From Persicaria tinctoria (lineage: Eukaryota; Streptophyta; Magnoliopsida; Caryophyllales; Polygonaceae): a stretch of 64,000 nt of DNA. The notes under the pieces were generated by a model. That model saw only the letters and a program-made list of their open reading frames with translations. It did no database searches and was not told where the DNA came from. Location: positions 32,665,115 through 32,729,114 of the forward strand of contig JBANSL010000012.1 of NCBI GenBank assembly GCA_037127255.1, written 5' to 3'. The position numbers were made by a program, and so were the translations under genes. Positions 7,849-59,546 of this stretch are shown here, one piece after another; positions within the stretch are counted from its first letter, which is position 1, and every line of letters begins with the position of its first letter.

Positions 7849-9080
7849 TGATATGCGATATATTCCATAGCGCATTTAGTAGTTTTTGTCATCATTTACA
7901 TGACATTATGAGAGATATTAGTGTGAACTTGGTGATTCGGAGCATGTTGAAGAAGTTGAAGAAATCACGCAAATTACAGAAGCTAAGAAGATCGGAAGCA
8001 GCTGGAGGGCTGAAGACATCCGACGCGGCCGCGCTGCACATGGCGTGCCCGCGCTGCTACCCCCGACGCGACCACTCTGCTAGGAGGAAGTGGCCGCGCT
8101 GCTGACAAGACAGAAGACGCAAGCTGAACCCAGTGCGCCCGCGTCGGTCCTGGAGTCGGATTCTTATCCGATTCTGTCTATCTTATTAGTTTTATTATTT
8201 TATTATTATATTTCCACGGGATGTTAAACCCGATTCTATTAGGTTAAATAGGCCGAAAAGGCAGTAGAGATTTCGTTAATGTTATTTTCGAGAGACGTAT
8301 TTTCCCTTCTTGTTCATCTCACAAACCCTATGGAGAACTAACTCTCCTTTGTTGCACTTGGTTCTTTGAAGCCTTCAATTGATTTGGTTGTGAGTATTCT
8401 ACTCTTGTTAGTCCTTTGTTAATTGTTTCGATCTCCTGAGCTTATTGCTTGATTGCTTATTATTGGTTAATCTGGATTGATCACCTAGGTTTATCGATAC
8501 TAGTCATATTGCTAGGATTTCCAATTCCAGGTTTGGGTTGTAGATTCATTGTAGCAAACACAATCTCCATACGCGGTTGCTTGTGGTATATTGTGAGGGA
8601 GATTCGATTGCAAGCTATTCTAACGGGTTGTTGGAATCGCTTGTATCTCATTATAATTCATGTTTGAATGCTATTGCTTTATTATTTGGTGAAGGTTTTC
8701 CCTTGTAATTCAGTAGTAAGTGCTTTTAGGACTGGTAGGACTAAAAGCTATTACACGATCTGAATTGAGAACAATTATTGGACATTAGAACTTGAGATTC
8801 ATAGAATGCGATGATGAACCATCTCAATTGTTGTGCGGATAATTACCTGGTGTGATATTTTCCATCATATATTCACAACACTTTATTGCAACTTGTTCTG
8901 TCATTACTATTTCTCACATACAAAACTCCCCTTGAATCGGTTACTTTTTGGGTAATAATACTTGCTATTACAATTGATTCTGTTTCCCTGTGGGTTCGAC
9001 CCTAACTTACCTACTATACTTGTTATAGTTTGCATCTTAGGAATTTACTTTGATTAGGCATAACGACCTTAGGCCTGTCA
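7849..9080 (+). repeat. Element A 5' LTR
   Basis: 1232 bp, TG...CA. It holds a GC-rich array of 20-mers (8022-8155), a degenerate TATA position (GGTTAAATAGG, near 8242), and the shared downstream word CCCTGTGGGTTCGACCC (from 8986). It is 20 bp shorter than the 3' LTR because it lacks one 20-mer. The last ~1 kb is shared, inverted, with the A-prime LTRs. The first ~170 bp are not. Confidence 0.92.
8022..8155 (+). repeat. Family-A GC-rich 20-mer array in LTR
   Basis: The word GACGCGGCCGCGCTGC and variants occur about five times here, with a basic 20-bp spacing and some drift. The same word recurs at 10537, 13261, 15286 and 15354, which are regions otherwise unrelated to this one. Confidence 0.8.
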
Positions 9081-9084
9081 AATT

Positions 9085-9102
9085 TGGCGCCGTTGTCGGG
9101 GA
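9085..9102 (+). other. Primer binding site, tRNA-Asp type (element A)
   Basis: TGGCGCCGTTGTCGGGGA lies four bases (AATT) inside the 5' LTR. It is complementary to the 3' end of plant tRNA-Asp with one mismatch, as is usual for Athila-type elements. The A-prime copies have the perfect version, with GCC in place of GTC. Confidence 0.88.
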
Positions 9103-9144
9103 AACGGTTAATCTTTGTTCTTGTTTGTTTTATTACCCACTTGG

Positions 9145-9170
9145 GTGCGAACCTCTTGCATGGTTCGCAC
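9145..9170 (+). promoter_or_regulatory. Leader hairpin spanning the gag start codon
   Basis: GTGCGAACC and GGTTCGCAC form a perfect 9-bp stem around an 8-base loop. The gag ATG (9160-9162) lies where loop meets stem. A-prime has a hairpin at the matching place with a paired T-A to C-G difference. Confidence 0.65.
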
Positions 9171-10248
9171 TCGTGCTACTGATCCCCATCTTGTTGATTT
9201 TGATTGGGAAATTGACAGGATATACCACCGCCGTCTTAGAGAACAACACCACCAACCCGATCCAATGGCTGCTAACCAGACACTGCGAGAGCTGACAGCA
9301 TCAAACATCACACAGCAGGCACCTGCTGTGACAATCCCTGCTATAGGGGATGACAACCATTTTGAGCTTAAGTCTGGGCTGATACATCAACTGCCGAAAT
9401 TCCATGGATCGGGTGGAGAGGACCCCATCAAGCACATGGGGAAGTTTCATAATGTGTGCATGAGCATCAAACCAGCCAATATAACTGAAGCACAGATAAA
9501 GATGAGAGCTTTTGGGTTCACGCTGGTCGATGCTGCGGATGACTGGTACTACAGCCTTCCTACTAGGAGCATCGATACTTGGCCTAAGCTCCACAAGGCC
9601 TTCCCGGAGAAATTCTTCCCTGCTAAGAAGGAGAACACCTTGAAGAAGGCAATCAGCAATATAGAGCAGGAAGAGGATGAGACCCTCTATGATTACAATG
9701 AAAGGTTCAAGAAGCTGTGTGCTAATTGCCCTTTCCATGGCTACAGCACGAAGGACCTAGTCTTATACATCTATGGGGGTTTGCTGGAATCTGATAGAAG
9801 GATGATTGATGCCGCCTGCGGAGGAAATATTCTGAATGCCACGCCAGAGGGAGCTATGGAGAAGATTCAGGAAATGGCTGAGGGGACTAGGAATTTTGGG
9901 AAGTCCACCAGGAAGAAAGGAGTCAACTCGGTAGACTCTAACAAAGCCAATGATATTGCTGAATTGAAGGATATGGTTAGGAGACTCACTCTGAAGGGGA
10001 CTCCTCAACAACTCAAGGCTTGTGAATTTTGCGGTGATGACTTCCACCCAACTGATGCGTGTCCTACACTCCATGGAGACACCGCTGAGGTGAGTGCTAT
10101 AGGTGGAAATGGACCTCAGAGACCCAGACATGACCCCTACTCAAACTCCTACAACCCAGGTTGGCGGGATCACCCCAATTTCAGATGGAGGGATCCACCA
10201 AACCAACCACATCAGCAGCAGCCACCTCCCTACAATCAGAGGCAGTAG
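9160..10248 (+). pseudogene. gag: gag of element A (Athila type), closed by an in-frame stop
   Basis: Gag forms the virus-like particle and packages the element RNA. The start ATG at 9160 follows the PBS and leader directly (upstream TTG frames are extension only). The first ~35 residues are basic. Residues ~75-250 form the retrotransposon gag domain, with words such as FHGSGGEDPI, DDWYYSLP and EEDETLYDYNERFKKL. A zinc knuckle CEFCGDDFHPTDAC (CX2CX4HX4C) lies at about residues 288-301. A Gln/Pro-rich tail follows. TAG at 10246-10248 ends this frame, but the same frame reopens at once and carries the rest of gag and pol. I therefore read this stop as an inactivating change. Readthrough is possible but less likely, because four more stops occur downstream. 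Confidence 0.85.
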
Positions 10249-11937
10249 AGTAACGCTCCATCCACTGAGTCCATGCTCAATACCCTGACACAACACTTTA
10301 CTGCGCATGTTCAGACAACTGAATCAAGCATAAAGGATATACAGAAGCAAATGGGGCAAATGGCTGAAGCAATCACTAGAATGGAGGCAAAGACGTCAGG
10401 GGGTCTACCATCTCAAACAGTGGTCAATCCAAAGGAAAACCTCAGTGCTATAACTCTTCGGAATGGAAAGGAGCTGAGAAGTCAGGAATCCGAGGAGAAA
10501 AGCACGACGGAGTCCAACGTGGCCACGCCCACCACTGGCGCGCCCGCGCCGGCCAGTGACGCGCCCGCGCCGGAAAGTGACGCGCCCGCGCCTGATGCTA
10601 GCGCGCCCACGCCATTGTCTGACTCGCCCATGTCGATTCCGATCCCGCCTGAATCTGAGCCCTATGTCGATACTTATGTACGACCGAATTTTCCCCCTCT
10701 CGGATCAGAGAAACCAAAGCCTCTGTTCCCTGAGGCACTCAAGGAGAGGAGGATAATCGATGATTCAGAGCTGTTTGAGACATTCAGCAAGTGTCAGGTG
10801 AACATTCCTCTGCTGAGAATGATAAAAACTGTGCCCAAGTACGCTAAGTTCTTGAAGGAGCTTTGCACAGTAAAGAGGAATCAGAAGCTGAAAGGGAAAA
10901 AGAAGGTGAAAGTAAGTGAGCAGGTCTCCGCTATGATTCAGAGGAGAATGCCGAAAAAGTGCGCTGATCCAGGTATGGTTACTATCCCTTGTGTCATTGG
11001 AGATGTAAAATTTGATAGAGCTATGCTTGATTTGGGTGCTTCCATAAATGTCCTTCCCTACTCACTCTACAAATCACTAGATTTAGGACCTTTGCATGAA
11101 ACTGGAGTAGTTGTGCAACTAGCTGATAGGTCTAATAAGTACCCTAAAGGAGTAGTTGAAGACGTTCTAGTTATGGTCGATAAACTGATTTTTCCTGCAG
11201 ATTTCTTTGTCCTGGATATGGAACACGATAAGCATGATGCCCCTATTCTGTTAGGTAGACCTTTTATTAAAACTACTAGGACAAAAATTGATTGTGTCTC
11301 TGAGACACTAACAATGGAATTTGATGGAGAAAAGGTTGAATTCGATCTCTATAAGGCTATGAAACATCCTGTTGATGACCATTCTCTGTGCTCTATTGAT
11401 GTGATTGAACCATTAGCTCAAGATTTATTTGATATTTCTAGGGAAGATGAGTTGCAGTCAATTATTGAGAATGATATTGATGAGTCCTATACAGATTTTT
11501 CAATTTTATCTAACATGCAGGAATTAGTAGCCCATATGGACATGGAAGGTGAGTCCCCTACTCTTTTGGGCATTGGCCCCAATCTACTAACTCCAAGCGA
11601 AGTGCTTGTTCCATCTGTTGTGCAGGCCCCTAAAATTGAACTAAAGCAACTCCCTAGTCATCTCAAGTATGCTTTCCTAGGAGTTGATGACACTCTACCA
11701 GTTATTGTGTCAAGTAAGCTCTCAGCGGAGCAGGAGGAAAAGTTAGTAGAGGTTCTAAAGGAGTACAAAACTGCATTGGGGTGGACCATCGCTGACATCA
11801 AGGGAATCAGTCCATCTACATGCATGCATAGGATCCTGCTGGAGGAAGGAGCTAAGCCATCACGCCAACCACAGAGAAGGCTCAATCCTCCCATGATGGA
11901 TGTGGTGAAGAAGGAAGTGCTGAAATTGCTATAAGCT
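10249..11937 (+). pseudogene. pol: Element A gag C-terminus, protease and start of reverse transcriptase
   Basis: This continues in the gag frame after the TAG at 10246. The first ~60 codons (MLNTLTQHFTAHVQTTESS region) are shared with the A-prime protein. The linker at 10537-10635 is made of exact 21-bp units encoding seven-residue repeats of the DAPAPxS type. The aspartic protease motif is DLGASINVLPYSLY (codons from 11029), with a later ILLGRPF word. The start of the reverse transcriptase follows, closed by a single TAA at 11935-11937. The protease cuts the polyprotein in the particle. The rest of RT continues in the same frame, so no indel separates the parts. Confidence 0.85.
10537..10635 (+). 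repeat. Family-A GC-rich array in gag-protease linker, 21-bp period
   Basis: Units start at 10537, 10558, 10579, 10600 and 10621, exactly 21 bp apart. Each begins (G/A)(G/A)CGCGCCC.CGCC except the last, which has decayed. The extra base compared with the 20-bp non-coding arrays keeps the reading frame. Confidence 0.85.
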
Positions 11938-14730
11938 AACATGATTTTCCCAATTTCTGACAGTCAGTGGGTGAGCCCTACCCAGGTTGTCCCTAAGAAA
12001 GGAGGGATTACAGTTGTGGAGAATCAACAAGGCGAGTTGGTCCCTACCAGGACACAAACAGGTTGGAGGGTGTGCATAGACTATCGCAAGTTGAACACAG
12101 TAACCAGGAAGGATCACTTCCCCCTCCCCTTTATTGATCAGATGCTAGAACGCCTTGCTGGGCGCCCCTATTACTGTTTTCTTGATGGATATTCTGGTTA
12201 TTTTCAGGTGGCCATAACGCCAGAGGACCAGGAGAAGACTACTTTTACATGCCCTTTCGTTACTTTTGCATATCGCAGGATGCCATTTGGACTATGTAAC
12301 GCACCCGGGACATTTCAACGATGTATGGTTAGTATCTTCTCTGAATACATTGAAAATTTCATAGAAGTATTCATGGATGATTTCACAGTACATGGGGATA
12401 GCTTTGATACTTGTTTGAGCCATTTGGCACTAGTATTAAAAAGATGTGTTGAAACTAATTTGGTTTTGAACTCTGAAAAGTGTCATTTTATGGTAGAACA
12501 AGGAATTGTTTTAGGTCATATAGTCTCTGCAAAGGGTATTGAGGTCGATAAGGCAAAGATTGATGTAATTCAGTCTCTGCCTTATCCTACTAATGTGCGC
12601 GAAGTTCGTTCTTTCCTAGGCCATGCAGGTTTCTATCGCAGGTTTATCAAAGACTTTTCAAAGATATCCTCACCCTTGTGCGAGCTTCTGAAGAAAGATG
12701 TGACCTTTGCACTCACACAAGAGTGCAAAGAGGCGTTCGACCAGCTGAAAGGACGCCTCACTAGTGCACCAATCATTCAGGCACCAGACTGGTCTCGCCC
12801 ATTTGAGATCATGTGCGATGCGAGCGACTATGCAGTGGGAGCAGTGCTAGGCCAAAAAGAGGGAAGAGCCTCTCATGTGATCCATTATGCTTCCATGACT
12901 CTGAATGGAGCACAGCGCAACTACTCTACCACTGAGAAAGAAATGCTAGCTGTGGTGTTTGCACTAGAAAAGTTTCGACAGTATCTGCTTGGGGTTAAAG
13001 TGATTATCTACACAGATCACGCAGCCCTCCGCTACTTGATGACAAAGAAGGAGACAAAGCCACGATTGATTCGATGGGTCCTGTTGCTCAGCGAATTTGA
13101 CGTGGAGATTAAGGACAAGAAAGGAGCGGAGAATCTGGTGGCTGACCACTTAAGCAGATTGGTGAATGAGGAGGACAAGCCGGAGTCACAAAAACCCATC
13201 TTAGGAACGTTTCCGGACGACACATTATGCAGACTCGAGCACAACAACACACTGGAGTCCGACGCGCCCGCGCTACCCTTTGACGCGGCCGCGCTGCTAT
13301 CTGGCGCGCCCGCGCTGCTACCTGGCGCGCCCGCGCTGCTCATCGACGCAGCTGCGTCAACCCCTGACGCGCCCACGCCTATGCTTCACCGATCACCTCA
13401 GCCTGTTCTAGGACTTCACTCTGTCAGTCCTTGGTACCGGGACATTGTGAACTACTTAGTGTGTGGAGAATTTCCTCCGGGTCATACCAAGGCCCAGACA
13501 GAGAAGGTTCGAAGAGAAGCCAACCACTATATTTGGGATGACCCATACCTTTGGAAACATTGTGCAGATCAGGTCATTCGTCGTTGTCTTCCAGATAATG
13601 AGGTACGATCTGTTCTTGAATTTTGTCATTCTGAAGCATGTGGGGGACATTTTGGTGCTAATAAAACTGCTAGAAAGGTACTTGAATCTGGATTTTATTG
13701 GCCACATATTTTTAAAGATGCTTATTCTTTCTGCAAGGCATGTGATAGGTGTCAAAGAATGGGGAATATCTCCCAAAGGAATGAAATGCAACAATCACCA
13801 ATGATCTTTTGCGAAATCTTTGATGTTTGGGGCATCGACTTTATGGGACCTTTTCCTAGTTCTTGTGGGAATTTATATATTTTACTTGCGGTGGACTACG
13901 TTTCCAAGTGGGTGGAAGCGAAGGCCACCAGGACTGATGATTCTAAAGTTGTGGCAGGGTTCTTGAAAAGCAATATTTTTGCCAGGCATGGTATTCCTAG
14001 GGCGCTGATTAGTGACAGGGGTACTCATTTCTGCAACAAAACTGTGACTGCCTTGCTTAAGAAATATCATGTCACACATAGAGTTTCCACCGCATATCAT
14101 CCACAGACGAATGGCCAAACAGAGGTGTCCAATAGAGAGATCAAAGCCATTCTTGAGAAGACCGTGAATCCTAACAAGAAGGATTGGAGTTTGAGACTTG
14201 ATGATGCTTTATGGGCTTATCGCACTGCTTACAAAACTCCAATTGGGATGTCTCCTTTCAGACTTGTCTATGGGAAGGCATGTCATCTTCCTGTTGAGCT
14301 GGAACACAAGGCTTGGTGGGCTGTGAAACAATGCAATATGCAGAGTGACGAGGTTGGAGAACACAGGAAGCTACAGTTGAGTGAGCTCGAGGAGCTACGG
14401 TTGGACGCCTATGATAATGCGGCTATCTACAAGGCGAAGACCAAGGCATGGCATGACAAGCACATCAACAGGAAGGACTTTAAAGCTGGTGACAAAGTCC
14501 TACTTTTTCAGTCTCGCCTGAAACTCTTCGCTGGGAAGCTCAGGTCAAAGTGGGGGGGACCATACATTGTTACTGAAGTTTTCCCACATGGAGCTGTAGA
14601 GCTATATGACCCGGATAGCCAAAAGAAGTTCAAAGTAAATGGTCATAGGCTTAAGACATACTATGAAGGGTTCCCAAAGGAGGCTATGGATGAGTTAGTT
14701 TTGGAGGAGCCACATGCGGAGTTAGAATAG
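11938..14730 (+). pseudogene. pol: Element A reverse transcriptase, RNase H and integrase
   Basis: The frame is the same as upstream after the TAA at 11935. Reverse transcriptase: VCIDYRKLN, then [17 protein letters not shown], then the catalytic FMDDF (near 12373). RNase [16 protein letters not shown], then a TDHAALRYL word. Next comes a linker of 21-bp GC-rich units (13261-13380). Integrase: an HHCC zinc finger (HFGANK to CKACDRCQ), then a DDE core with [19 protein letters not shown] and [16 protein letters not shown]. The C-terminus has a [18 protein letters not shown] GPF/GPY-like region and no chromodomain, as is usual in Athila. These enzymes copy the RNA to DNA and insert it. Apart from the upstream stop, this 929-codon stretch is open. 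Confidence 0.9.
13261..13380 (+). repeat. Family-A GC-rich array in RNase H-integrase linker, 21-bp period
   Basis: Units start at 13261, 13282, 13303, 13324, 13345 and 13366. They encode Ala/Pro/Leu-rich heptapeptides ([21 protein letters not shown]). This is the same word as in the LTR and env leader, at a codon-preserving period. Confidence 0.87.
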
Positions 14731-14775
14731 TCAAACAAGGCTTGGTCGAGCCAGCGACATGAAACAAAGGCGCTG

Positions 14776-14793
14776 CTTGGGAGGCAACCCAAG
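14776..14793 (+). promoter_or_regulatory. Post-pol hairpin (element A)
   Basis: CTTGGGAGGCAACCCAAG folds as a short stem (CTTGGG with CCCAAG) around AGGCAA. It lies 45 bases after the pol stop, in a longer conserved context (ACATGAAACAAAGGCGCT before it). Element B has the same sequence at 52877. A-prime has a version with both sides changed to CTCGGG/CCCGAG. Confidence 0.65.
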
Positions 14794-15285
14794 GAACTGC
14801 ATTATCTCCTTTAACTCAATTTTATTTTATTTTGTAGGTACTAAAGACGGAGTTCTGGTGACGAATTGCACCCGCATTTCGGAACCACTGCACCCGCAGT
14901 GTTAATTTTCGTCAAAAAAAATAAAAAAATAAAAAATAAAATAAAATTTAATTAAATTCGGCCACGGGCTGGAAAACCCACTTCGGGCCAGCCCGCCAGT
15001 TTCAAACCCATCAGGCCCATCAGCCCCCACCAAAACCCTACACCCCACATCACCCTCACCACACATCCCTCTCAATCCTCTCACCACTAAAACACTCCAA
15101 TCTCTCTCCTCTCCTCACCAAAACAGCCGCCCCCACCTGGACATCCACAACTCCCCCCTCCCTGAAGCAAACATTCCGCCGGCGAAGCTCCACCAGCACC
15201 ACCTACAACCGGCACCGGAGGAATCTCGGCGAGCCTCACATCGACGAAGCCGTCTTCGTCAAATTCCAGATCTGCAGAAAGCTCC

Positions 15286-15473
15286 GACGCGGCCGCGCCA
15301 GCCCTAACGCGGCCACGCCATCTGCAGAAAACCCCCCCAGAAATCTGACAAGCGACGCGGCCACGCTGCTTTCGACGCGCCCACGTTGCAACCGACGCGG
15401 CCGCGCTGCACCCAACGCGCCCACGCTGCTTTCGACGCGCCCACGCCAGCAACAGCGTGCCCGCGTCTGCCCC
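15286..15473 (+). repeat. Family-A GC-rich array in env leader, 20-bp period
   Basis: One or two units lie at 15286-15330. Then six units start at 15354, 15374, 15394, 15414, 15434 and 15454, exactly 20 bp apart, each a variant of GACGCGSCC.CGCTGC. This is non-coding DNA, and the period is 20 rather than 21. Confidence 0.85.
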
Positions 15474-15547
15474 TGCGCCGAGCCTCCAGTGTCTTCGTGA
15501 GTTCTTTTCGTTGTTTTCTTTCGATTTCATCATCTTATATATCGAGA

Positions 15548-16942
15548 ATGAGTTCATCGGATGAGGAGGCGAGTAGATCCGATAATAGGTTAGATATGTC
15601 TGATGAGGAATGGACGATTTACAATAAAGTTAGCTGCATTAGTCCCACTAAATACTTGCATAGACCGACACTGTAGAAGCTTCAGATGCTATAATGTATG
15701 GAGCAATGTCTAGAGCATGCCGGTATTAGTGGTTTTCTGGATTTGAGGGCTGTAGGATACCCGGATCTGAGCAAACAGTTCCTCGCAACTTATCAGGTTT
15801 ACCTTGGAGAGAATCGAATTAGGGGGGTTGAGTTCAGATTCAATGGCACCTCGTACAGGGCATCTGCAGCTAGGTTGCGAAGAGCTTTGGGGGTTACTAA
15901 AGCCCCAACTGATGGATGGGTCACAGCTGCGTCCGACCCAGACCTTGTTGCATTCTTCAGAGCAGTGTCTGGAGAGGAATTTTTGACCAGCAACGAGTAC
16001 AACAGCAGGATCACTCATCCTGTCTTCCGGATGTTGTGCAAAATCGTTTCTGGGACGTACTATGGGCTGACTACGGATACAAAGCTCTCCTTGACGCATC
16101 TGAGATTTGCCTACAGCGCTGTGCCGACTGCAGATTATACGCCTGACTGGGTTAGGCTCTTTTTCGATGGCCTCGACAGGATCAGGAAGGACCGCAGTGC
16201 CGCTGGGCCAGAAATGGTCCAAGGCGGCCTTATTACTCGAGTCGCCATTGCTGCAGGCGTTGCGCAGAATGATTTGGAGGAGCTGGAGGAGCCACAGATG
16301 ATACCAAAGACCTATACAGAGGAGTATCTACGGAGATGTCTGATGCTGGATACTGCACCGGATGGGGGAGCCATTTGGTGCACGAGCAAGAAGAAGGAGC
16401 ATCAGTTCAGGCTCCCTAAGCCCCTGCCTTGGTCAGAGTCTTGGTCTGATTGGTACATCGAGGCGGATTACTTTCCGACGTCAGTCCTGGGGAGAAGGCG
16501 TCGCATGGAGGTGGGCAGCAGCAGTGGCACAGCTGGAGCTGCCACGATGGAGGATGCACCTATGGCTCAGCAGGCTTTTGTTGAGGCAGATACACAGGGG
16601 TTCACACAGAACCCATATCAGGAGATGCCTGCTTATCAGACCACATTTCAGAGCGGTTGGGATTCTCAACCGACATTTCAGCGCCAGCAGGATACGCATC
16701 AGTGGACCCCTTGGCCTGCGCAAGCTTCTCAAGATGCCCATCAGCAGCCCTAGCAGTGGGGCTACCTGACTGATCAGATTGGCCTTCTACGGCAGGACGT
16801 GGGGAGTCTGACGACAGTGACAACCCAGATTCTCCACCAGCAGGCCGACATCTTACAGGGCTTTGGCGAGTTCAGAGAGATGAGGGAGGAGCTGTGCCGT
16901 ATGCGAGAGGACTACTCTCGCCACTTTCCACCACCTCCGTGA
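15548..16942 (+). pseudogene. Athila-type env-position ORF of element A, three in-frame stops
   Basis: ATG at 15548 (MSSSDEEASRSDNRLDMS) opens an acidic N-terminus. Stops occur at 15674 (TAG), 15692 (TAA) and 16751 (TAG), with the frame intact throughout to TGA 16940. The middle (15698-16500) has the pattern of the ATHILA ORF family: FLDLRAVGYPDLSKQFLATY, RASAARLRRALGVTKAPTDG, ITHPVFRMLCKIVSGTYYGL, then a basic GRRRRMEV word. A Gln-rich stretch and a short heptad-like tail (QIGLLRQDVGSLTTVTTQIL) follow. No signal peptide or membrane segment is evident. The function of this family is not settled. The position after pol is that of env in retroviruses, but homology to env is not shown. Confidence 0.78.
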
Positions 16943-17600: not shown

Positions 17601-17795
17601 TGATATGCGATATATTCCATAGCGCATTTAGTAGTTTTTTTCATCATTTACATGACATTATGAGAGATATTAGCGTGAACTTGGTGATTCGGAGCATGTT
17701 GAAGAAGTTGAAGAAATCATGCAAGTTACAGAAGCTAAGAAGATCGGAAACAGCTGGAGGACTGAAGACATCCGACGCGGCCGCGCTGCACATGG
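17601..17795 (+). repeat. Element A 3' LTR, first part
   Basis: It matches 7849 onward. The match breaks after CATGG (17791-17795), the target duplication of the A-prime array. It resumes at 27552. Confidence 0.92.
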
Positions 17796-19312: not shown

Positions 19313-19350
19313 AACTCCCCCACACTTAACCTTTGCTTGTCCTCAAGCAA
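19313..19350 (-). other. A-prime terminal polypurine tract + hairpin, unit 1
   Basis: On the minus strand, TTGCTTGAGGACAAGCAA (plus 19333-19350) is a 7-bp stem with an AGGA loop. It is followed by AGGTTAAGTGTGGGGGAGTT against the LTR. This matches the design in elements A and B. Confidence 0.82.
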
Positions 19351-20494: not shown

Positions 20495-20497
20495 TTC

Positions 20498-20534
20498 CTC
20501 TCCCCCACACTTAAAGTTTTCATTGTCCTCAATG
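20498..20534 (-). other. A-prime internal hairpin + purine module, unit 1
   Basis: On the minus strand, CATTGAGGACAATG (plus 20521-20534) is followed by AAAACTTTAAGTGTGGGGGA. It is the second copy of the terminal design, about 1.2 kb from the LTR. Confidence 0.72.
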
Positions 20535-20613
20535 AAACAATAAAGACAACAAAAGTAAATCAAATATAATCAGGGTGAAGGGAAAGAAAAAGGAAAAAGA
20601 AAGAAAAACTTAC

Positions 20614-21774: not shown

Positions 21775-21797
21775 GTTAAACTGTTAGTAGCATATGT

Positions 21798-48609: not shown

Positions 48610-50614
48610 TGTTGTGAGCCGAATCTGCCATGTTTTACCTTATCTTTTATATTGTTTTCTGCATACATTTCATGCATTTGGGCTAGAATAGTACAGAATC
48701 TATGTAGTTTATGCTTATTTGCCAAATTATGGAATCTACACTAGTTTCTGTTTAAATTCGCAGAATTTGAGGCGATTTACAGCAGTTCAGAGAAAGGAAG
48801 AAAATCTCGAAGTCAACTACAGAAGATCAAGGCCAAGCAGCAGCGGAACTAGGACAAATCAAGATGGACACAAGAAAATCTGCTCGACAACATGTTAGTC
48901 GATATCGACTAAAGCTTGTCGATATCGAGTACAGCAAGGCGGACCAGAATCGAGCAAGGCCAGAAGACAGGAGCACAGCTTACTCGATATCGAGGAAAGC
49001 CCAAATCGATTTCCACCTCTGTAGCCGAAATCGAGAAGCTGAGCGGACAAGACAACTCGAGTGCAGAACTTTACTCGATATCGAGTAAATTACTCGATAT
49101 CGAACAAGATCAGAAGCCGCATCTGTGCTCGAGGAAGCAACACCGGATCAAGAAGCCGAAGAGATGACACATCGAGCACAACTTTGCTCGATGTCGAGGA
49201 AATTACTCGATGTCGAGTAAACCAGAAGCACATGTCCGAGCCAGTTCTGGGAAGAAGTTACACGAGAAGACGAGACAGGCTGAGGTCGACGACATGGTTC
49301 CTCGATATCGAGTAAATTACTCGATATCGAGCAAAACTCTTCTGGGCCGCGTTGCTGTTGGGCTGTCCGAGTCGAGTTGGGCTTGCTTGGGAGCGAAGGA
49401 GTCCGAGTCTATCCGAGATCTATCATGTCCTATCAAAGATCTATCTATGGAGAGAGATTTATCCACACTTTTAGATATTTAATTCTTTCCCTTTAGAATT
49501 AATGTTTTATCTTTATTTAATTCTATCTTTAGGTAATAGATATAGATTTCTTTCCTTGATTAGCAAGGATTGGAAGCATATAAATAAGGCCTTAGGGGCT
49601 GATTTTTATTCATTCAATTCAAGTTACAATTAGTCACATAGAGAGAGTAGAGGAGAGAGCTTGTGGCGAGAGAAGTTGGAAAGGCGAAAGCGGATTTGGC
49701 TTCGATTGGTTGTAAGTTCTCTTTAGTTTATTTAAAGCAAGTTAGTTTCTTTTGTTATTTGATGAGTTTCTTGATGATGAAGTGCGAGTAGTCCACCCAC
49801 TTCTAGGGTCAGGGTGAGCCCGACGGTGTCTATGTGAGGTGATGCGGTAAAGGTTTGATCTTTTTATGCAATTCATCTTCTATCCCTATGAGCATGATTC
49901 TTTTTCGAAAGTTGAAGGTGATCATTATTTGTGTTATTGAAGTGAAAGTGATCTTAATACAACTTGGGTTAATTATGTGAAAAGGGTTAGTAACAATTAG
50001 AGTTTATGCGAAATCCTCTATCTTCCTATTTGTTAACAACGAAAGTTATTTGATGAAAAGCATGATCTTTTATGCCTTAACTTTATGTGTTATTTTGCAT
50101 GGTTATCGTTGTGGTGTTGATACCCTGGCCTTGGAAGTCTTCAGTTTATTGAATTAATTCATCGAAATCTGTGTTCTACGGCTGTGATTCTAAGTTTCTG
50201 TCTTTACTCGATTCCGAGGAGTTTTAGTCGATATCGAGGACTGCTTTGTAGATATCGAGGAAATCTTGCCGAGATCGAGTTACTGTGTCTGAGTTTGCTT
50301 CCTGTTGATCGATATTGAGTTTCTGGTGTCGATTAGTTTAGTCGATATCGAGTAACTGTTTGTCGATATCGAGTAAGTTATTTGCTTTGCTTTATTTTCC
50401 GCTTTTATTTGTTATTTTTGTCTTTTTGGTTGTCCTTCTGTCCGTGAGATTTACAGCTACCTGAGATCCGCTAACGTGTTTCCTTGTGGATCGATCCTGA
50501 CTTCACGCTACTACATCAAGAGGAAGTCTTGTAATTATTTACAAGGGACGGAATCTGCTTTGCTCTACTTATTTCTTATTTTGAATTGCAAGTCTCGATT
50601 TCCTCCTACTAACA
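48610..50614 (+). mobile_element. Solo LTR 'C2'
   Basis: 2005 bp, TGTTGTGAGCC...CTAACA. Flanks are AGTGT (48605-48609) and AGTGC (50615-50619), a 5-bp duplication with one later change. It has a TATAAATAAGG box (49579-49589), a downstream word TCCTTGTGGATCGATCCTGA (from 50481), and dense TCGATATCGA palindromes (48898-49330 and 50204-50375). It is clearly related to C1 at both ends, in the same order, with considerable divergence in the middle. Open frames through the palindromes are not genes. Confidence 0.85.
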
Positions 50615-50647
50615 AGTGCCAACAACGTTCGTCCCGCACCAAATTCT

Positions 50648-50665
50648 TGGCGCCGTTGCCGGGGA
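50648..50665 (+). other. Element B PBS, tRNA-Asp type, unit 1
   Basis: TGGCGCCGTTGCCGGGGA, six bases inside the LTR end, perfectly complementary to the 3' end of plant tRNA-Asp. Confidence 0.88.
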
Positions 50666-50733
50666 GAAGAAAGGAGTTTGCTTTTCTTTATCTCTTTCAA
50701 TTACTCTTTACTTTGAGTCTTTTGTGTCCTTGT

Positions 50734-52829
50734 ATGGTTCAAACTAGATCTTCTAATTCATTGCCTTTGTCTTTTGATCCTGAGGTTGAAAGATCTCTTA
50801 GGTTGAAGAGGAAGCTTGAGTTTGAGATAGACAAGGAGATGGCAAAAGACGCTATTGTTGATCCGCCAAGAAGGAACCTAAGAAACCTAAAGGAACCTAA
50901 TTTGAGTGCTCAACCACTTGCAATTAGTCTTCCTAATCTCCCTAAGAGTTCAAGATTTGAGTATAAGTTGAACTGGTCTTCCATTTTGCCTTACTTTCGT
51001 GGATTTCCTAGGGAGGAACCAAGCAAGCACCATGCTACCTTTGTGAGCGTGTGTGATAGACTGAGACCCCAAGGCCTGAACGATGACCAATTGATGTTGA
51101 GAGTGTTCCCTTTTACTTTGAAGAATTCTGCAAGCGATTGCCTTTACTACCTACCCCCAGAAAGCATTACTAGTTGGGTGCAATTGAAGAAAGCTTTCTT
51201 GCAAAAGTAGTTTCCTATGACTCGCCTCAACAAACTTAAGAAGAAGCTATCCAGTTTTGAATAATCACCTATGGAGAGTCTTTATGAGTATGTTGAGGGG
51301 TTCAAGAAGCTTAAGGGTAGTTGTTCGCAACATGGTATATCCGAGGATGATCTAGTGATGTATCTTTATGAAGGCTTGCTTGACACCGATAGGAGTTTCA
51401 TCAATGCTACTAGCGGAGGAGATATTTTGGATAAAACACCTCAGGAAGCAACGGAGATTTTTGAAGGGTCGGCTAATGCATTGCAACAATATAGGAAACA
51501 CCAAGGAGTTAGAGGAGTTCATAAGTTGGATAGGTCGAGAGATGGACTCAAGGAAGATATCGATAGGCTTATGGAAATCGTGAACAAGATGATTATGCAA
51601 ATGAATCAACCCCATCAGCCTAGACTTATGGTGTTTGTGGAGATCCAACTCATCCGAATGATAAGTGTCTCTTGATTCCGGAGGACACCGCTGAAGTGAA
51701 TGCTATGGATTATGGACCTCGCCGCAACTTTGGTAACAATTACAATCAGGGCTACAATTCAAACTACCAAAGTGGATTCAATGGTAGAGGCCAACAACAA
51801 CAAGTTCCTTTTCAGAGAGAACACTTCGAGAATCATCCTAGAAACACTCAACAAGAAGATCAAGATGAGACATTGAGGTTGCTACTGGACAAGATGAGTG
51901 TTCAAGCAAAGTTGCTTAGTCAGATGGCTAAGGAGATTGGTGAATTAAAAGCGAAAGATTTGGGGCAGTTACCAACGCAGGTGGTAATGAATCCGAAGGA
52001 GAATGTTAGCGCCATAATCCTTAGAGGAGGTAAATAAGTGAATGTGCCCACTAGGAATGTTGAAGAGAGGTCTAGGGAAGAAGTTGATTTGGGAAATAAG
52101 GAGGAAGAGACGGAAATGGCGACATACTGCATAGACGGCGCCTGCCGCCCCTCACCACGGTGCCCGCCGCTTTCTCCAGTGACGGATCCGACTTCTGACG
52201 TTGTTCAATCCCTGAAGAAATCTTCTAAGGAGTGGTCTTCTGAGGTTTCAAGACCTGCACCACCCTTTCCTCATGCCTTAAGATCTAATCAGAAGTGGGA
52301 AGATGAAAAAATTCCTTATGACACCTTTGCTCATAGTAAGGTAAATATTCCACTTTTCAATTTGATTAAAACTGTGCCTCGCTATGCGAAATTCTTGAAA
52401 GAGCTATGAACGATAAAGCGAACGAAAAGGATGCGGAAGAAAGAAAAGGTAAGTTTATGTGAGAATGTTTCTGCTTTGCTTTAGAAATGATTGCCTGAAA
52501 AGTGTGAAGATCGGGGTATGTTTACTATCCCATGTACAATAGGTAATTCTAGCTTCATCAAAGCTATGTTAGACCTAGGTGCTTCAATTAATGTTATGTC
52601 CTATAACTTGTACATGTTTTTGGGTCTCAATTCATTGTCTGAAACTGGTGTTACCATACAACCCGCTGATCGTTCTAGTATTAAGCCTAGAGAAGTTTTT
52701 GAGTTGTTGAAGATCGTTCTATCATTCAACTCAATCGATGCAGTTGAAGGATATGTTGGAGAAGTTCCTAAAGTTCCACCTTTTGTCTTGCAAAGGACAA
52801 GTGTGGGGGATCTTGGTGGAGTAACTTGA
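50734..52829 (+). pseudogene. gag: Element B gag and partial protease, unit 1
   Basis: ATG at 50734 (MVQTRSSNSLPLSFDPEVER). The gag domain has LPYFRGFPREEPSKHH, then EYVEGFKKLKGSCSQHGISE, then GGDILDKTPQEA. Stops at 51208 and about 51262, a frameshift near 51620-51680 (in the zinc knuckle), and stops at 52035, 52407 and about 52482 break it. A GC-rich linker is at 52136-52175. The protease start, LDLGASINVMSYNLY, is at about 52567. Soon after it, the frame runs into sequence that is not protease or RT, so nearly all of pol is deleted. Unit 1 could move only with enzymes supplied by another element. Confidence 0.8.
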
Positions 52830-53769
52830 TCAAGAAATGCATCACGTCGAGCCAAAGACGTGAAACAAAGGCGCTTCTTGGGAGGCAACCCAAGGTAGTT
52901 AGGTAGTATTTTTATTTTGTAATTAGTTTTCAATTCAATAAAGTAGGATCAATCCTGTCGCTGGATTTCGGAAGTTACGGTAAGTTGCAACTTGTGTCGG
53001 ATTGATTTTTGATTGGATTGGAAGAACGGAGTCCCATTCTGTGGAAACGGCGCCCGCCGCCCCAGCCACGACGCCCGCCGCCCCCTGTCCGCCTGACGAG
53101 TTCGATTTTCTATCTTTCTTATTTTTTGTTATTTTTCGTTTTAGGTTAGTTTTATTTATTTTATAGGATTAGATTGTTTTCTTTTATTTTGTTCTGGGAT
53201 TCGATTATCTTCTATCTATCTTAGGTTAGTATTTTATCTTTTATCTATTTTCTATCTATCTAAGGATTAGATTTTTCTTTTTAGGACTAGTTTCCTTATT
53301 TTCTAGGATTAGTGGTTCTATCTTTTCTATTTCTATTTTATCTAGTTCTAATATTTTCCTATTTTTCTTTTTGATAGATATTCCTTCCAACTCACCATAT
53401 ATTGCTACTCCTTATTGTGAATCATTCAAGCTTGCTCAAGGAATCTACAAAACCCAAAAGCCTACTGGAATCCATTCCAAATACCTATAGCCTTGCATTT
53501 CAATCGATTCTGTTAATCAAAACACTTTCCACCATTACCCTACATCCACAAAATTCAACTTTTCCATTCCATTCCCCTACTTATAACCAAAGAATCCTTC
53601 GAAACCAAGTTGTTCGTGAAAAGTTCGAGTTTGGAGGAGTGGACGTCGGTTTTCCAATGTTTTCACTCGGATTCGCGGTTTTGCGTACACGACGCCCGCC
53701 GTCCCTACAGCGAGTCCGTCTTTTGATCGTTTTTTGTGGTTTTTCTTCGGTTTTTCCTTGAGTTACATC
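52830..53769 (+). other. Element B env leader, unit 1
   Basis: No gene. Contents: post-pol hairpin, an AATAAA-type T/A-rich stretch, GC-rich words (53046-53095 and 53691-53712), and a T-rich region with repeated words TATCTATCTTAGG and TAGGATTAG (53160-53345). A pyrimidine-rich segment leads up to the ATG at 53770. Confidence 0.5.
52877..52894 (+). promoter_or_regulatory. Post-pol hairpin (element B, unit 1)
   Basis: CTTGGGAGGCAACCCAAG, identical to element A at 14776, preceded by the shared GACGTGAAACAAAGGCGCTT context. It survives although pol itself is deleted. Confidence 0.65.
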
Positions 53770-55025
53770 ATGTCTGATGCTCCTATTATGAAGATGCCCC
53801 ATTTGATGTCTCGGGTAGAAAAGGATCGTTGGCTCAAGCTTGAAAAGAGGCGGTATGAATCCACCATATTCTTTCATCCCCCGACGTTGAAGAAATTGGG
53901 AATATTTGAGGAGGTCCATCGACTCCTGAAAGATGGGGGATTGAGTGATTTCTTGAATGTATCTGATTTTACCTATCTGACATTAGTGAGAGAATTCTTG
54001 GCTACCCTGGATTATTGTTCTGATATGGAGATTCATTTTCAGCCGAGGAATCGGAAGTTCGTGGTAACTAAGGATCTCATTGCACAAGCTTTTGGTGTTA
54101 CCAAAATGCCTACTGATGCCAGATTTGGGGACAAGTTGGGTGCTCCAAATCCTATTGATACGTGGAAAGAGGCTACAGAAGAGTTCGTTGATTATGACCA
54201 ACCACGCTGTGCATCCATGATTGCTCATCCTACATTGAGGTTGTGTTATTTGGTACTCTGTGACTCTTTCCTAGGTGTGGAGAATTCTTCCATTGTTACT
54301 ATGAGAGCCTAGAGCTATATTTGTTGCTTGATTCCGGGAGGGGTGCACATCCCTGACTGGGTTCAACTATTTTTGGGAAACTGCATGGAGGTGATTAGAG
54401 CTACTCATGTGAGGCCGGAACACATTATTGTTTTCGGAGGTATGATATCGTTGACTGATCGCCGAGTGGGTGTCTGTCTTGATGATTTGCAACCTCTTAA
54501 TGGAAGAATGTTTACAATCTTGCCAGCCCGGAATGGTGGGGCATGATTAAGTGGGCCCAACGTCCGGATAGAACATGGTGTTTTAAATGGAAGTCGGGAC
54601 CAGGAGAGAAGCATCACAATTATCTACTTGCGGAACTACCATATATCCTGAGGATGTTAGATTTCAGTCTCTATCACAACAAGTTTCCATTAGAACCCGA
54701 TGAGCATAGTTTAGTGAGGCGATGGCCTGTTATTGACAGCGAGGCCACTGATGATGAGACCACTACTGCTGAGGCTATCGATGATGAGTCTGTTGAGATT
54801 ACAAAAGCTAAGGTCGTCGTGAGAGAAGAAGTTGCTGAAGATGACGTCGAGCCTATATATCTTACTTTGTTTGATATTGAGCGTCGATTTGCTGATTTTG
54901 AGACGAGTACTACTAACAAGCTCGCTAGTCTGTTGGAGAAGCTCTTGAGTCTTCAAAATGCTTTATTGATTGCCTTTCGGGACATCAATCAGCGGTCTGG
55001 ACCCCAGACTCCGCCTTCACAATAA
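53770..55025 (+). pseudogene. Athila-type env-position ORF, unit 1
   Basis: ATG at 53770 (MSDAPIMKMPHLMSRVEKDR). The frame has LGIFEEVHRLLKDGGLSDFL, YLTLVREFLATLDYCSD and IAQAFGVTKMPTDARFGDK, the same order of words as element A's ORF (FLATY, ALGVTKAPTDG). A TAG at 54310 and a frameshift near 54540 break it. The C-terminal part (54543-55025) has YLLAELPYILRMLDFSLYHN and a short coiled-coil-like end (FDIERRFADFETSTTNKLAS). Function is unknown for the family. Confidence 0.72.
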
Positions 55026-55094
55026 TAGGTTAGTCATTTGCATCTTTCAAACCCCTTGTTTTTACATTTTTCATTGTTCTTTTTTGTGTTTCTA

Positions 55095-55145
55095 TGCATT
55101 GAGGACAATGCAACATGTAAGTGTGTGTGGGGGGGGGGGGGGGGG
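55095..55145 (+). other. Internal AGGA hairpin + G-run module (element B, unit 1)
   Basis: TGCATTGAGGACAATGCA (55095-55112) is a 7-bp stem. It is followed by ACATGTAAGTGTGTGTG and a run of 17 G (55129-55145). The G run sits where A and A-prime have TGGGGGA. Confidence 0.72.
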
Positions 55146-56532
55146 AGGGGGAGAATGAAGTGAATTAGTTAGGTTAGTTCATGTTTGAATTTAGGTTTTT
55201 GATTTTGTTTTTCTTATTTCCTTTATGTTATTTCTTATATGTTATAGAAAATGTCAAAAATGAAAATAAAAAAATTGGAAAATATCGAAAAAAAAAGTGA
55301 GTCTTGTTTTGTTGTTTTGCATATTGTGTTATCAAAAATTTCCATCTTAATTTGAGTTTGTCCTATTTTCACTTCATACTGACATGATCTTATAAATCCC
55401 ATAGAATTCTAGAATGATTTGATCTTATAATGAAAATTGGTTTTTTATGTGAAATATTATTAAGCATATGTAATTGAGCATGTATGATCTAAGTTTGGGA
55501 GTATGCTTGGAATTTAACAAAAATTTGTCCCAGTGAGATATTTTTTGCCTTAATCTTTATTCCTTTTGTTTTTCTTGTGTGATTTGCTCTTCCTATGCAT
55601 TTATCATTGAGTATTGTCATGTTTATCTATTTTCAAGGCCGATTATATACATGTTCATTGCTTAATAAGTTCAAATGATGGCAACTTTTTAGCCACATAT
55701 TTATCCATGTCTACCTTATGTTATATCTTGCTTTGAAGCCAATTTGAGCCTTTAACCTTTTTATTGATAGCTCCACAAAATTATTATTCCTTGCCTATGA
55801 TGAGCCTTACCCTTATTCCGGGGTAATTGAGATTTTGAGTGGGTTATGGAATCTATTTTGGAGACTGAGGAGAATGAAGCTAAAATGTGATGTTATGGTT
55901 TGTGGTTTTGAGAAGATGTAATGTTATGTGATTATTTAGTCCCTCATTTTTATGCATTCAAATTTTATGTATGTTGGCTCACGAAAGAAAATCCAAATAC
56001 AATTCCTTACCCTTATATTATTAGTCCCTCATTTTTGTGCATTTGTGAGCTTGATGTTATTGAGTTGGTTTGTGTTATGTTGTGAGTTTTGGAATCTTAT
56101 TTTCCCGGAATTTATTGCACCACATGACCAAACACAATTCCTTGCCCTTATATTTCTACCAAGCCTCATTACAACCCCGCCAAATGGAATCTTCTACGAA
56201 GGTTTCCATTGAGCGAAAGTCCTCTTGATGTCCTTATTTTTTCATTGACGTATCCGGTGGAGATTTTATGATATAAATGTAAATATTTGAATTGATGCTT
56301 GTATATGGAATTTAGGTGAGTGTGTGCTTAAAGCCTAAACACATGAGAATGAGGATACACATTTTATCCTCGGTAAGGTTGATTTTTGAGCATGCAAGCA
56401 ACTTGATCCCATATATACATGTGACGACGTTTATATGTTTGATTATATTTGCACTATTTATGATGTTGCTTTTGATGAGTGAAGTTATGAAAGATTTCCT
56501 GTGGGATAGGTAGATGATGTTTTGCTTTATGG
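55146..56532. other. Element B 3' untranslated region, unit 1
   Basis: No gene. AT-rich, with internal similarity: the block around TAGTCCCTCATTTTTATGCATT recurs near 55938 and 56022. It corresponds to 60860-61998 in unit 2. It lacks the A/G-rich stretch found there (61605-61675). Confidence 0.5.
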
Positions 56533-56570
56533 TTGCTTGAGGACAAGCAATAGTTAAATGTGGGGGGATT
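56533..56570 (+). other. Terminal hairpin + polypurine tract (element B, unit 1)
   Basis: TTGCTTGAGGACAAGCAA (56533-56550), then TAGTTAAATGTGGGGGGATT against the LTR at 56571. Same layout as A and A-prime. Confidence 0.82.
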
Positions 56571-57844
56571 TGATAATGCATATTTAATATAGGCATTATA
56601 GATATTTCTTATTGCTATTGGGTAGTTGTTTTGATATGTTTTGAGTCTAGTTCCGTATATTGTTAGTGAAGTATTCGAGTTCGGCATATATGCGTAGTTA
56701 ATGTTTATTCTGCAAAATTACATTCCGACCTTGGATGGACTTTGAGAAGAGCTTAAGAAGCACGTTTTGGAGCATATGGAGGCTAAGGAGGAGCTAAAGA
56801 GGATCAAGGAAGCATGACATTGGAAGCTATTGAAGACAATTAAGAAACGTCGGACACTGCATAGACGGCGCCGACCGCCTTTTGCACGGTTTCCGCCGCC
56901 CTTTGCACGACGCCCTTCGTTGCCCAGTTTTTGGATACAAGGTTTTAGATCCGAAGATATTATTTTATATTATTCTATTCTATTTCCTACTAGGGTTTTG
57001 TCGACTCTTAGGAGGCTTTATTAGTTGTTTTTTAGTCTTTTTATAGAGTGGTGGTTGATTATTGTGAGACTATGAATACAACTAGATAGAGAGAACTGGC
57101 ATATGAGTTGCTAAACTCATAATTTCACATGTGATTCAAAAAAATGGTTGTTTGGATTGTGAGGATTTGATTCTATTTGATTATTCATGTTCTTAGTTAT
57201 TATCTTGTGCTTAATTTAAATTTGTGTTCCTTTCTATGCCTGATCAACATGTTAGGAATTGCCTCTTAGCTATGAATTCGTTGTTGTTTTCTCGAAAGCA
57301 AACAGAGGTACTAATGATAGTGATGTCTCTTTGTCTTTGTAGTGGATGATTTCAATTGATCTATGTTGTGTAGATTTGATTAAGGCTGATTTCGGTAAGC
57401 GCCTATTAGTCTTAATTGAGTTGAGTCAATGTGTGAATTGGTCTTGATTACTTGAGGCCTTACTGCTATTCTTTAGTGATATTAAATAAGATGAGTGAAT
57501 CTCTTGCAAGTGAAATGAATAATTAATAGATCAATCCGAGGACCATGAATTCCAACCATTGTCAGAGAATTGCAAGTGAAATGTTCTTTCTACTTTGATA
57601 TAAATTTACTTTGCGATCATAAATCTGGTTACTTTTACATCTTTGTTACTTGTTACAAATCATTTCTTTGCTATAAGAGTCTTTGGATCTCCCTGTGGGT
57701 TCGACACCGGACTTCATCGATATACTAGTAGCTATTTCGTTTATCAAGTGATTGATTGCATAATCTATTGGTTTTGTGTTTAAGTTTGGATATTATTACT
57801 ATTTGGTAAAGGGCGAAAGTGCCAACAACGTTCGTCCCGCACCA
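56571..57844 (+). repeat. Element B second (shared) LTR
   Basis: 1274 bp, TGATAATGCATATTT...CGCACCA, uninterrupted. It is the 3' LTR of unit 1 and the 5' LTR of unit 2. GC-rich words are at 56865-56922. The shared downstream word CCCTGTGGGTTCGACACC is at 57691. Confidence 0.87.
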
Positions 57845-57850
57845 AATTGT

Positions 57851-57868
57851 TGGCGCCGTTGTCGGGGA
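57851..57868 (+). other. Element B PBS, unit 2
   Basis: TGGCGCCGTTGTCGGGGA, with the same single mismatch to tRNA-Asp as element A. Confidence 0.85.
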
Positions 57869-58799
57869 GATCGTGAACAAGATGGCTATCCAAATGAATC
57901 AACCCCATTAACCTAGACCTTGTGGCATTTGTGGAGATCCAACTCATCCGAATAATAAGTATCCCTTGATTCAGGAGGACACCGCTAAAGTGAATGTTAT
58001 GGATTATGGACCTCGCCGCAACTTTGGTAACAATTATAATAAGGGCTACAATTGAAACTGCCAATGTGGATTCAACGAAAGAGGCCAATAGCAACAAGTT
58101 CCTTTTCGGATAGGACAATTCGAGAATTGTCCTAGGAACACTCAACAAGAAGATCGAGATGAGACATTGAAGTTGTTGTTGGACAAGATGAGTGTTCAAG
58201 AAAAGTTGTTGAGTCAGATGGCTAAGGAGATTGGTGAATTTAAAGAGAAAGATTCGGGGAACGTACCATCGCAGGTGGTAGTGAATCTGAAGGAGAATCT
58301 TAGTGCCATGATCCTTAGATGAGGCAAACAAGTGAATGTGCCCACTAGGAATGTTGAAGAGATGCATAGGGAAGAAGTCGATTTGGGAAATAATGAGGAA
58401 GAGACGGAATTGGAGACACACTGCATAGACGGCGCCCGCCACCCCTCACCACGGCGCCCGCCACCTCTTCCAGTGACGGATCCGACTTCTGACGTTGTTC
58501 AATCCGCGAAGAATTCTTCTAAGGAGTGGTCTTCTGAGGTTCCAAGACCTTCACCATCCTTTCCTCATGCCTTAAGATCTGATCAGAAGTGGGAAAATGA
58601 ACAAATTCTTTATGACACCTTTGCTCATTGTGAGGTAAATATTCCACTTTTCAATTTGATTAAAACCGTTCCTCGCTATGCGAAATTCTTGAAAGAGCTA
58701 TGCACGATAAAGCGAAAGCAAAGGATGCGGAAGAAAGAAAAGGTAAGTTTATGTGAGAATGTTTCTACTTTGCTTCTGAAACGATCGACTGAAAAGTGC
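57869..58799 (+). pseudogene. gag: Element B gag remnant, unit 2
   Basis: Right after the PBS, the sequence matches unit 1 from about 51580, so the leader and most of gag are deleted. What remains is the zinc-knuckle region (around 57925), the C-terminal gag with stops, a GC-rich linker (58429-58475), and the run-up to protease (KTVPRYAKFLKELCTIKR word). It jumps near 58799 into env-leader sequence, before the protease active site. Confidence 0.72.
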
Positions 58800-59546
58800 G
58801 GACACGGCGCCCACCGCCCCAGTCACGACGCCCGCCACCCCCTGTCCGCTTGATGAGTCCGAATTTTGGTAAACTTGGAAGGGAAGTTTCTATCTTTCTT
58901 ATTTTTGGTTATTTTTCGTGTTAGGATAGTTTTATTTATTTTGTAGGATTAGTTTTATTCCTCTTTTATTTTGTTCCAGGATTAGATTATTTGCTATCTA
59001 TCTTAGGTTAGCATTTTATCTTTTATCTATTTTCTATCTATCTTAGGATTAGATTTTTCTTTTTAGGATGAGTTTCCTTATTTTCTAGGATTAGTGGTTC
59101 TATCTTTTCTGTTTCTATTTTATCTAGTTCTAATATTTTCCTTTTTTTTTGATAGATATTTCTTCCAACTTACCATATATTGCTACTCCCTATTTTGAAC
59201 CATTTAAACTTGTTCGAGAAATCTACAAAACCCAAAAGCCTACTGGAATCCATTCCAAATACCTAAAGCCTTGTGTTCAATCGATTCTATCCACCAAAAC
59301 ACTTTCCACCATTACCCTACATCCACAAAATTCAATTTTTCCATTCCATTCCCCTACCTATCACCAAAGAACCCTTTGAAACCAAGTTGTTCGTGAAAGC
59401 TTCGAATTTGGAGGAGTGAACATCCGTTTTCCAACGTTTTCACTCGGATTCGTGGTTCTGCATACACGACGCCCGCCGCCACTACAACGAGCCCGTCTTG
59501 TGGTCGTATTGGTGGTTTTTCTTCGGGTTTTCCTCAAGATTACACT
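58800..59546 (+). other. Element B env leader, unit 2
   Basis: No gene. It matches 53044-53769 of unit 1 closely, with the same GC-rich words at 58802-58850 and 59466-59487. It lacks the post-pol hairpin because the deletion removed it. Confidence 0.6.

Follow-up and report, generated by a model that had tools for sequence, protein, structure and literature searches.

Comparison with described systems

Sirevirus RM boxes are element-specific, palindromic repeated motifs which lie in the long terminal repeats (LTRs) and upstream of env, and they border CpG islands (PMC2829016). A regulatory role has been suggested for them (Bousios et al. 2010, PMC2829016), and that report calls RM Sirevirus-specific and absent from the other copia elements compared. 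Here we analysed a 64,000-nucleotide stretch of Persicaria tinctoria DNA (the window; contig JBANSL010000012.1, positions 32,665,115 to 32,729,114 of the forward strand), in which two Athila families of LTR elements, one comprising element A and its relative A' and the other two diverged copies, B1 and B2, each carry their own GC-rich word of about 20 bp. The words were confirmed as real, family-specific and scattered in the LTR, the linkers and the leader of the second open reading frame (ORF), and all the word sites listed in the original prediction, which had been made from the letters alone, were present at most 2 bp from their predicted starts. The RM boxes are the closest match in layout.

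The VANC target motifs of VANDAL DNA transposons have been demonstrated to be bound by an element-encoded anti-silencing protein, which removes methylation (Hosaka et al. 2017, PMC5735166; Sasaki et al. 2023, PMC10398659). The likeness is that of a tandemly repeated, family-specific motif which diverges between families, and this was found here for two families. The VANDALs differ in being DNA transposons with an element-encoded binder, whereas the words are known here from DNA arrays, some of them coding. In maize, palindromic clusters of Sireviruses attract small RNAs (Martin et al. 2023, PMC10760457, citing Bousios et al. 2016), and Ty3 elements are described in the same text as generally without a peak of palindromic structures (PMC10760457). 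Short interrupted direct repeats have been described in Arabidopsis (PMC10342631). No report of such boxes in Athila was present among the titles and abstract openings listed in our literature search, most subscription papers lying outside its coverage. Similar words may also occur in soybean and nightshade repeats.

Word arrays of the A and B families

Both strands of the window were scanned for each word with up to 4 mismatches in 16 positions, and the counts were compared with 100 first-order Markov simulations. Variants of the A word gave 54 matches against 1.53 expected (simulation maximum 6), and 53 of them were inside A or A'; near-palindromic A units were sometimes counted on both strands. 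For the B word, 16 matches were found against 0.74 expected (simulation maximum 3), 14 of which were inside B1 or B2. The predicted family specificity of the words was therefore borne out. The arrays are distributed as follows.

8022-8147, plus strand: A, 5' LTR, 5 word units
10516-10636, plus strand: A, gag-protease linker, 6 units with a 21-bp period, three near the consensus, the unit at 10516 degenerate
13261-13381, plus strand: A, RNase H-integrase linker, 6 units with a 21-bp period
15286-15469, plus strand: A, leader of the second ORF, 8 units, mostly with a 20-bp period
17774-17789, plus strand: A, 3' LTR, first unit, with the A' insertion directly after it
27550-27675, plus strand: A, 3' LTR, remaining 5 units (6 in total)
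18726-18870, minus strand: A', LTR1, 6 units
22853-22977, minus strand: A', LTR2, 5 units
26960-27104, minus strand: A', LTR3, 6 units
21174-21273, minus strand: A', gag-protease linker, first copy
25281-25380, minus strand: A', gag-protease linker, second copy
47603-47660, plus strand: B1, LTR, 3 units with a 21-bp period
52135-52172, plus strand: B1, gag-protease linker, 2 units 22 bp apart and hence in different reading frames
53047-53083, plus strand: B1, leader, 2 units
53689-53704, plus strand: B1, one unit alone, in the 5' portion of the stop-to-stop frame bearing the ATHILA ORF-1 match
56865-56922, plus strand: B2, LTR, 3 decayed units
58429-58466, plus strand: B2, gag-protease linker, 2 units 22 bp apart
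58804-58840, plus strand: B2, leader, 2 units
59466-59481, plus strand: B2, single unit at the place corresponding to the B1 unit at 53689

The original prediction did not include the split copies of the A 3' LTR (17774 and 27550-27675), the unit at 10516, which is degenerate, or the dyad boxes that two other LTRs carry and that are described below. The claim that the conserved domains of A are free of the word held, as the Pfam domains contained none of the 12 array units of A gag-pol. A less strict scan with a 12-base word, in which up to 4 mismatches were allowed, gave 41 A matches, of which 16 were isolated and weak and were treated as noise, including three inside domains (9526 in gag, 12298 in reverse transcriptase and 13053 in RNase H). 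The unit sets used below, which for A extend from the 5' LTR to the second ORF, were made without these 16 and without 2 of the 18 B matches, all isolated and with 3-4 mismatches.

Copies upstream of env, as in Sireviruses, were observed in A (15286-15469), B1 (53047-53083, and 53689) and B2 (58804-58840, and 59466), and the arrays inside the gag-protease and RNase H-integrase linkers go beyond the Sirevirus layout as reported. RM clusters start 200-400 bp into the LTR, whereas the LTR arrays begin here at position 174 in A, 295 in B1 and B2 and 443 in A', so that only the B family falls within that range. All but one of the RM boxes contain CGG-CCG, and likewise the B consensus (unit 53047) and the A units with a GG centre; it is absent from the boxes of the two other LTRs. 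The number of CpG per 100 bp was 12.9-20.0 in the A and B arrays, 7.7-8.5 in the box regions of the two other LTRs and 1.9-2.6 in five samples of the rest. RM clusters form CpG islands; the arrays here are CpG-dense, and most of them are shorter than 200 bp. The described RM hosts are Ty1/copia elements, whereas the hosts here are Ty3/Athila elements and another Ty3 type, and they are thus not Sireviruses.

Copying within a family and turnover of units

For the comparison of identities 25 A units and 16 B units were used, the units of A' and of the A 3' LTR being left out. Mean identity between different sites of one family was 0.697 for A and 0.766 for B, about the same as within one site (0.712 and 0.776, respectively), whereas the same site compared between the families gave 0.449. 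The best other-site match was in the unit's own family only for all 41 units, and each of the 35 units with a counterpart site was more similar to other sites of its own family than to the same site of the other family. A stretch of 24 nt including the spacer is common to the A RNase H-integrase array and an A' LTR, and 20 nt are common to the A LTR and the A leader. Copying of the word between sites within a family, as originally predicted, is well supported by these sequence comparisons.

Minisatellite turnover, another of the predicted behaviours, is supported because three length differences of exactly one unit were observed. The 5' LTR of A is one 20-bp unit short of its 3' LTR (5 versus 6), LTR2 of A' is one unit short of LTR1 and LTR3, and the gag-protease array of A' is one 21-bp unit short of that of A.

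The statement that the word is replaced wholesale between families was overstated. Only two Athila families were compared, and GCGCCCGC occurs in the consensus words of both, with an identical 4+2+4 frame. Since an 8-mer was common to 879 of 20000 shuffled word pairs, the sharing of GCGCCCGC is weak evidence either way.

Equivalence of the sites between families

The flanks of the sites in A and B were aligned with the arrays masked. The gag-protease site was homologous on both sides (A 10345-10470 and 10711-10773; B1 51909-52034 and 52251-52313), and here the predicted equivalence of positions is secure. In the LTR the alignment was weak and solely downstream of the arrays, with best E values of 0.002 near the LTR end (B2) and 0.04 in the middle of the LTR (B1). 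The env leader has one upstream anchor of 50 bp with 92% identity, between A 14745-14794 and B1 52846-52895, and it was found for B1 only, so that this site is equivalent only approximately.

A stem-loop, CTTGGG-AGGCAA-CCCAAG, is present just after pol in A (14776-14793, plus strand) and B1 (52877-52894, plus strand). Both A' copies (24721-24738 and 20614-20631, minus strand) have it as CTCGGG-AGGCAA-CCCGAG, with a paired change in the stem and an unchanged loop. Its surroundings folded better than shuffles in B1 only (z -3.21; A -0.18, A' -1.45).

Dyad symmetry and spacing

The best dyads of the A and B words are both 4+2+4 and in the same register. The A dyad was reached by 21 of 5000 column permutations, in a test using 27 A units (the 25 above and two of the six in the A 3' LTR, but none from A'). 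By eye, the B consensus is a 5+2+5 dyad, and at least 4 of its 5 pairs are kept in 11 of the 16 B units. A de novo scan for recurrent perfect dyads, with 20 second-order simulations for each segment, found 10 copies of one dyad in A, 9 in A', 14 in the LTR of element C and 12 in element D, all with a spacer of 2 (simulation maxima 3, 3, 4 and 5, respectively). The other five segments of the window and all 16 loci fetched from a genome contig search showed no dyad excess over the simulations.

C, a Ty3-type element, has its gag-pol on the minus strand, and no chromodomain was found in it. The sequence that bears its boxes is a probable 3' LTR by homology to D, starting near 33976 and with an uncertain far end (about 31800); a single copy of it was found in C. 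D, at about 48609-50613 within B1, is probably a solo LTR and has the 5-bp duplication AAGTG. The boxes of both are TCGA-NN-TCGA and, unlike nearly all RM boxes, lack CGG-CCG.

33200-33717, minus strand: C, probable 3' LTR, five box pairs upstream of a TATA-like sequence
32133-32257, minus strand: C, probable 3' LTR, two more box pairs downstream of the TATA-like sequence
48899-49330, plus strand: D, nine boxes, eight of them paired, upstream of a TATA-like sequence near 49579
50228-50372, plus strand: D, three further boxes downstream

The boxes of C and D are mostly paired, 19-22 bp apart, and fold as hairpins. Similar spacing was observed directly in all four families: 39 of the 41 intervals below 60 bp between neighbours were 19-23 bp (A 19/21, B 8/8, C 7/7 and D 5/5). 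With strict A matches only, the value was 12 of 13. As a separate observation, a 47-bp tandem repeat at 63872-63986 holds another GC-rich dyad, GCGGC-ACC-GCCGC.

The host elements and their relatives

The features on which the assignment of the elements rests are the following.

7849-9080, plus strand: A, 5' LTR, LTR ends TG..CA, with a sequence like a primer binding site (PBS) at 9086
15695-16753, plus strand: A, ORF downstream of pol, resembling the B1 ATHILA ORF-1 protein (24% identity, 135 columns, E 2e-8)
17796-27546, minus strand: A', relative of A, inserted in the A 3' LTR and splitting it at 17795/27545
53620-54312, plus strand: B1, frame with the ATHILA ORF-1 match (PF03078, 21.3 bits, just above the cut-off of 20.2)

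Pfam identified gag, protease, reverse transcriptase, RNase H and integrase in A, which is thus Ty3-type. Reverse transcriptase and RNase H precede integrase, which is the Ty3 order; the domain order was seen for A only. A and B were assigned to the Athila lineage by this order (A only), by PF03078 (B1 only) and, for A, through the similarity of its ORF. ATHILA ORF-1 is reported in 16% of Athila elements (PMC6317226). The second ORF of A had no Pfam match of its own, and its fold prediction, with a pLDDT of 33, was uninformative and was discarded. The part of A from reverse transcriptase to integrase gave no tblastn match in 47309-64000, which contains the B family, at E up to 1, which leaves the RNase H-integrase site of A with no B counterpart for comparison. 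A PBS-like sequence is common to A, A', B1 and B2, and we take it to be that of tRNA-Asp.

The gag-pol frame of A (9112-14730) is interrupted by two in-frame stop codons, indicating a broken copy. A' has the order LTR-internal-LTR-internal-LTR, which fits recombination between two copies. A large imperfect inverted repeat (61323-62648), about 86% self-complementary, lies beside B2. The insertion point of A' is within the word array of the A 3' LTR (17774-17800 and 27540-27566), with the 5-bp duplication CATGG. According to one report (PMC6911290), palindromes are weakly preferred as insertion sites; the effect is significant for Athila and three further families, and nested insertions taken together show no significant preference. 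A' inside the A array is one case of this kind and proves nothing.

Two of the 16 fetched loci, L001 and L002, are close to A in gag-pol, with 77% identity in reverse transcriptase. They are located in Solirubrobacter and Geminicoccus assemblies and are presumably plant contamination of these bacterial assemblies. Neither gave a match, with E up to 1, to one or the other of the second ORFs. No relatives were found in viral contigs or phages, and plasmids gave three distant matches with at most 39.6% identity.

Interpretation of the words

The most likely mechanism, to which we would give an even chance, is a family-specific, protein-binding dyad box that evolves as a minisatellite. The word would be a cis-acting DNA box, a CpG-dense dyad with two 4-base half-sites around 2 bases, which recurs about every two helical turns and forms clusters in the LTR and the second-ORF leader. 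A dimeric nuclear protein, either a transcription factor or a chromatin regulator, would most likely bind these clusters and may drive or protect transcription of the element. The arrays would grow and shrink by one unit in the manner of a minisatellite, and copying between sites, whether through gene conversion or through template switching during reverse transcription, may keep the sites of a family alike while the families drift apart. In the gag-protease and RNase H-integrase linkers, the arrays would be either spill-over that is tolerated or additional sites in flexible stretches of the polyprotein. Of the roles first put forward, binding of a factor is the best that remains, and the words are candidate binding sites. 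In favour of such a box are the likeness of the sites within a family, the one-unit length differences, the A dyad, the dyad counts of the de novo scan, the spacing, the CpG density, the GCG codon use, the two frames of the B linker units, the insertion relative to L001, the persistence of CpG in the B words and the layout in common with the RM boxes. Past the array of the A' LTR a strict TATA motif follows at about 100 bp, and past that of the A leader at about 70 bp.

Several results weigh against such a box. The B dyad was reached by 676 of 5000 permutations and is not significant alone, and the sites of C and D were picked by symmetry, which makes symmetry tests on them circular. B1 and B2 stayed within the simulations in the de novo dyad scan, perhaps due to the decay of many B units. 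Some degenerate A units were retained partly for being in phase, which bears on the spacing counts. The A LTR has no strict TATA match, and those of the B LTR are more than 300 bp beyond the arrays. Between the 5' and 3' LTRs of A, CpG was kept no better in the words than outside (18/19 versus 25/27). Arrays in coding linkers are unexpected of promoter boxes, and the internal parts of L001 and L002, contigs with no LTR pair by self-comparison, contain 0 A words and 0 B words. The evidence comes from one window and two Athila families.

The main rival is a neutral or selfish GC-rich minisatellite of about 20 bp, functionless, expanding by slippage, spreading between sites through template switching and tolerated only where harmless (LTR, leader and polyprotein linkers); we consider it possible but doubtful. 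The gain and loss of units, the restriction of array units to places outside domains, the 24-nt stretch common to the A linker and the A' LTR, and the close relatives that do without the word all agree with it. The junction of an internal deletion in B2 (58790-58810) lies within about ten bases of a word, which fits it as well. On the other hand, two diverged families carry an array at one and the same gag-protease position, and the 4+2+4 geometry and the spacing of about 20 bp recur with different letters. CpG also persisted better in the B words, where 22 of 31 were kept between B1 and B2 compared with 40 of 88 outside (Fisher p 0.02). None of these three points is decisive.

A private cis code for each Ty3 family, suggested by analogy with VANC and VANDAL, is unlikely. 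The code would be read by the family's own protein, the ATHILA ORF-1 product or Gag. With it an element would tag its DNA or RNA at several points, either for anti-silencing or for selective mobilisation, box and protein co-evolving. The ATHILA ORF-1 product is only 24% alike between A and B. If such a code were true, the box would also serve non-autonomous partners, namely A' and the B copies that lack reverse transcriptase.

It is quite unlikely that the words are hairpin or palindrome clusters acting through RNA, either as structured transcripts that feed small RNAs, a proposal made for the LTRs of maize Sireviruses, or in packaging and dimerisation. The box pairs of C and D do form stems better than most shuffles, with z from -1.90 to -3.37 for 7 C pairs and from -4.78 to -7.55 for 5 D pairs, and 3 of the 7 C pairs have reverse-complementary centres. 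In this they resemble the palindromic regions described for maize Copia LTRs, and a role as RNA hairpins is possible for C and D. The A and B arrays, which are the subject of the finding, differ from those regions, and their folding does not surpass that of dinucleotide shuffles (z from -1.72 to +0.95 in 8 stretches); the suggested RNA dimerisation or packaging thus gained no support. Rfam gave three matches in 14600-15700, all far below the gathering scores.

Selection for a peptide repeat, in which the arrays would encode a flexible linker rich in Ala and Pro and the likeness to DNA elsewhere would be fortuitous, is very improbable. Both coding arrays of A are in the same frame with a 21-bp period, which gives DAPAP/DAPAL and would suit this explanation. 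It is disfavoured because the Ala codon GCG accounts for 17 of 23 in the A gag-pol arrays but 13 of 109 elsewhere in gag-pol, because in B1 and B2 alike the two gag-protease units are offset by 22 bp and are read in different frames, and because the A RNase H-integrase array is within a stretch of about 59 residues that is absent from L001 (66% identical in the aligned part of pol). The same word also stands in non-coding copies in the LTRs and the leader. The constraint is at the DNA rather than the peptide level.

General GC bias or biased gene conversion without a specific word has hardly any chance: the words are very GC-rich and loose matches, counted without simulation and mostly in GC-rich contigs, were found in 7 of the 16 fetched loci for the A word (at most 10, in L012) and in 5 for the B word, but gag-pol of A sampled at 11000-13200 has a GC content of 0.43 and a CpG observed/expected ratio of 0.40, the letters and the spacing are specific, and the word counts in the window are far above simulations.

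RM-type boxes were earlier described as a peculiarity of Sireviruses, which are copia elements, and the same layout is seen here in two Athila families. Dyad boxes with a spacing of about 20 bp and different letters are also present in two other Ty3-type LTRs of the same genome, which suggests a general rule of plant LTR elements. The arrays in the polyprotein show that a DNA unit is able to invade coding sequence, and private address codes that may be read by a host or element protein become testable.

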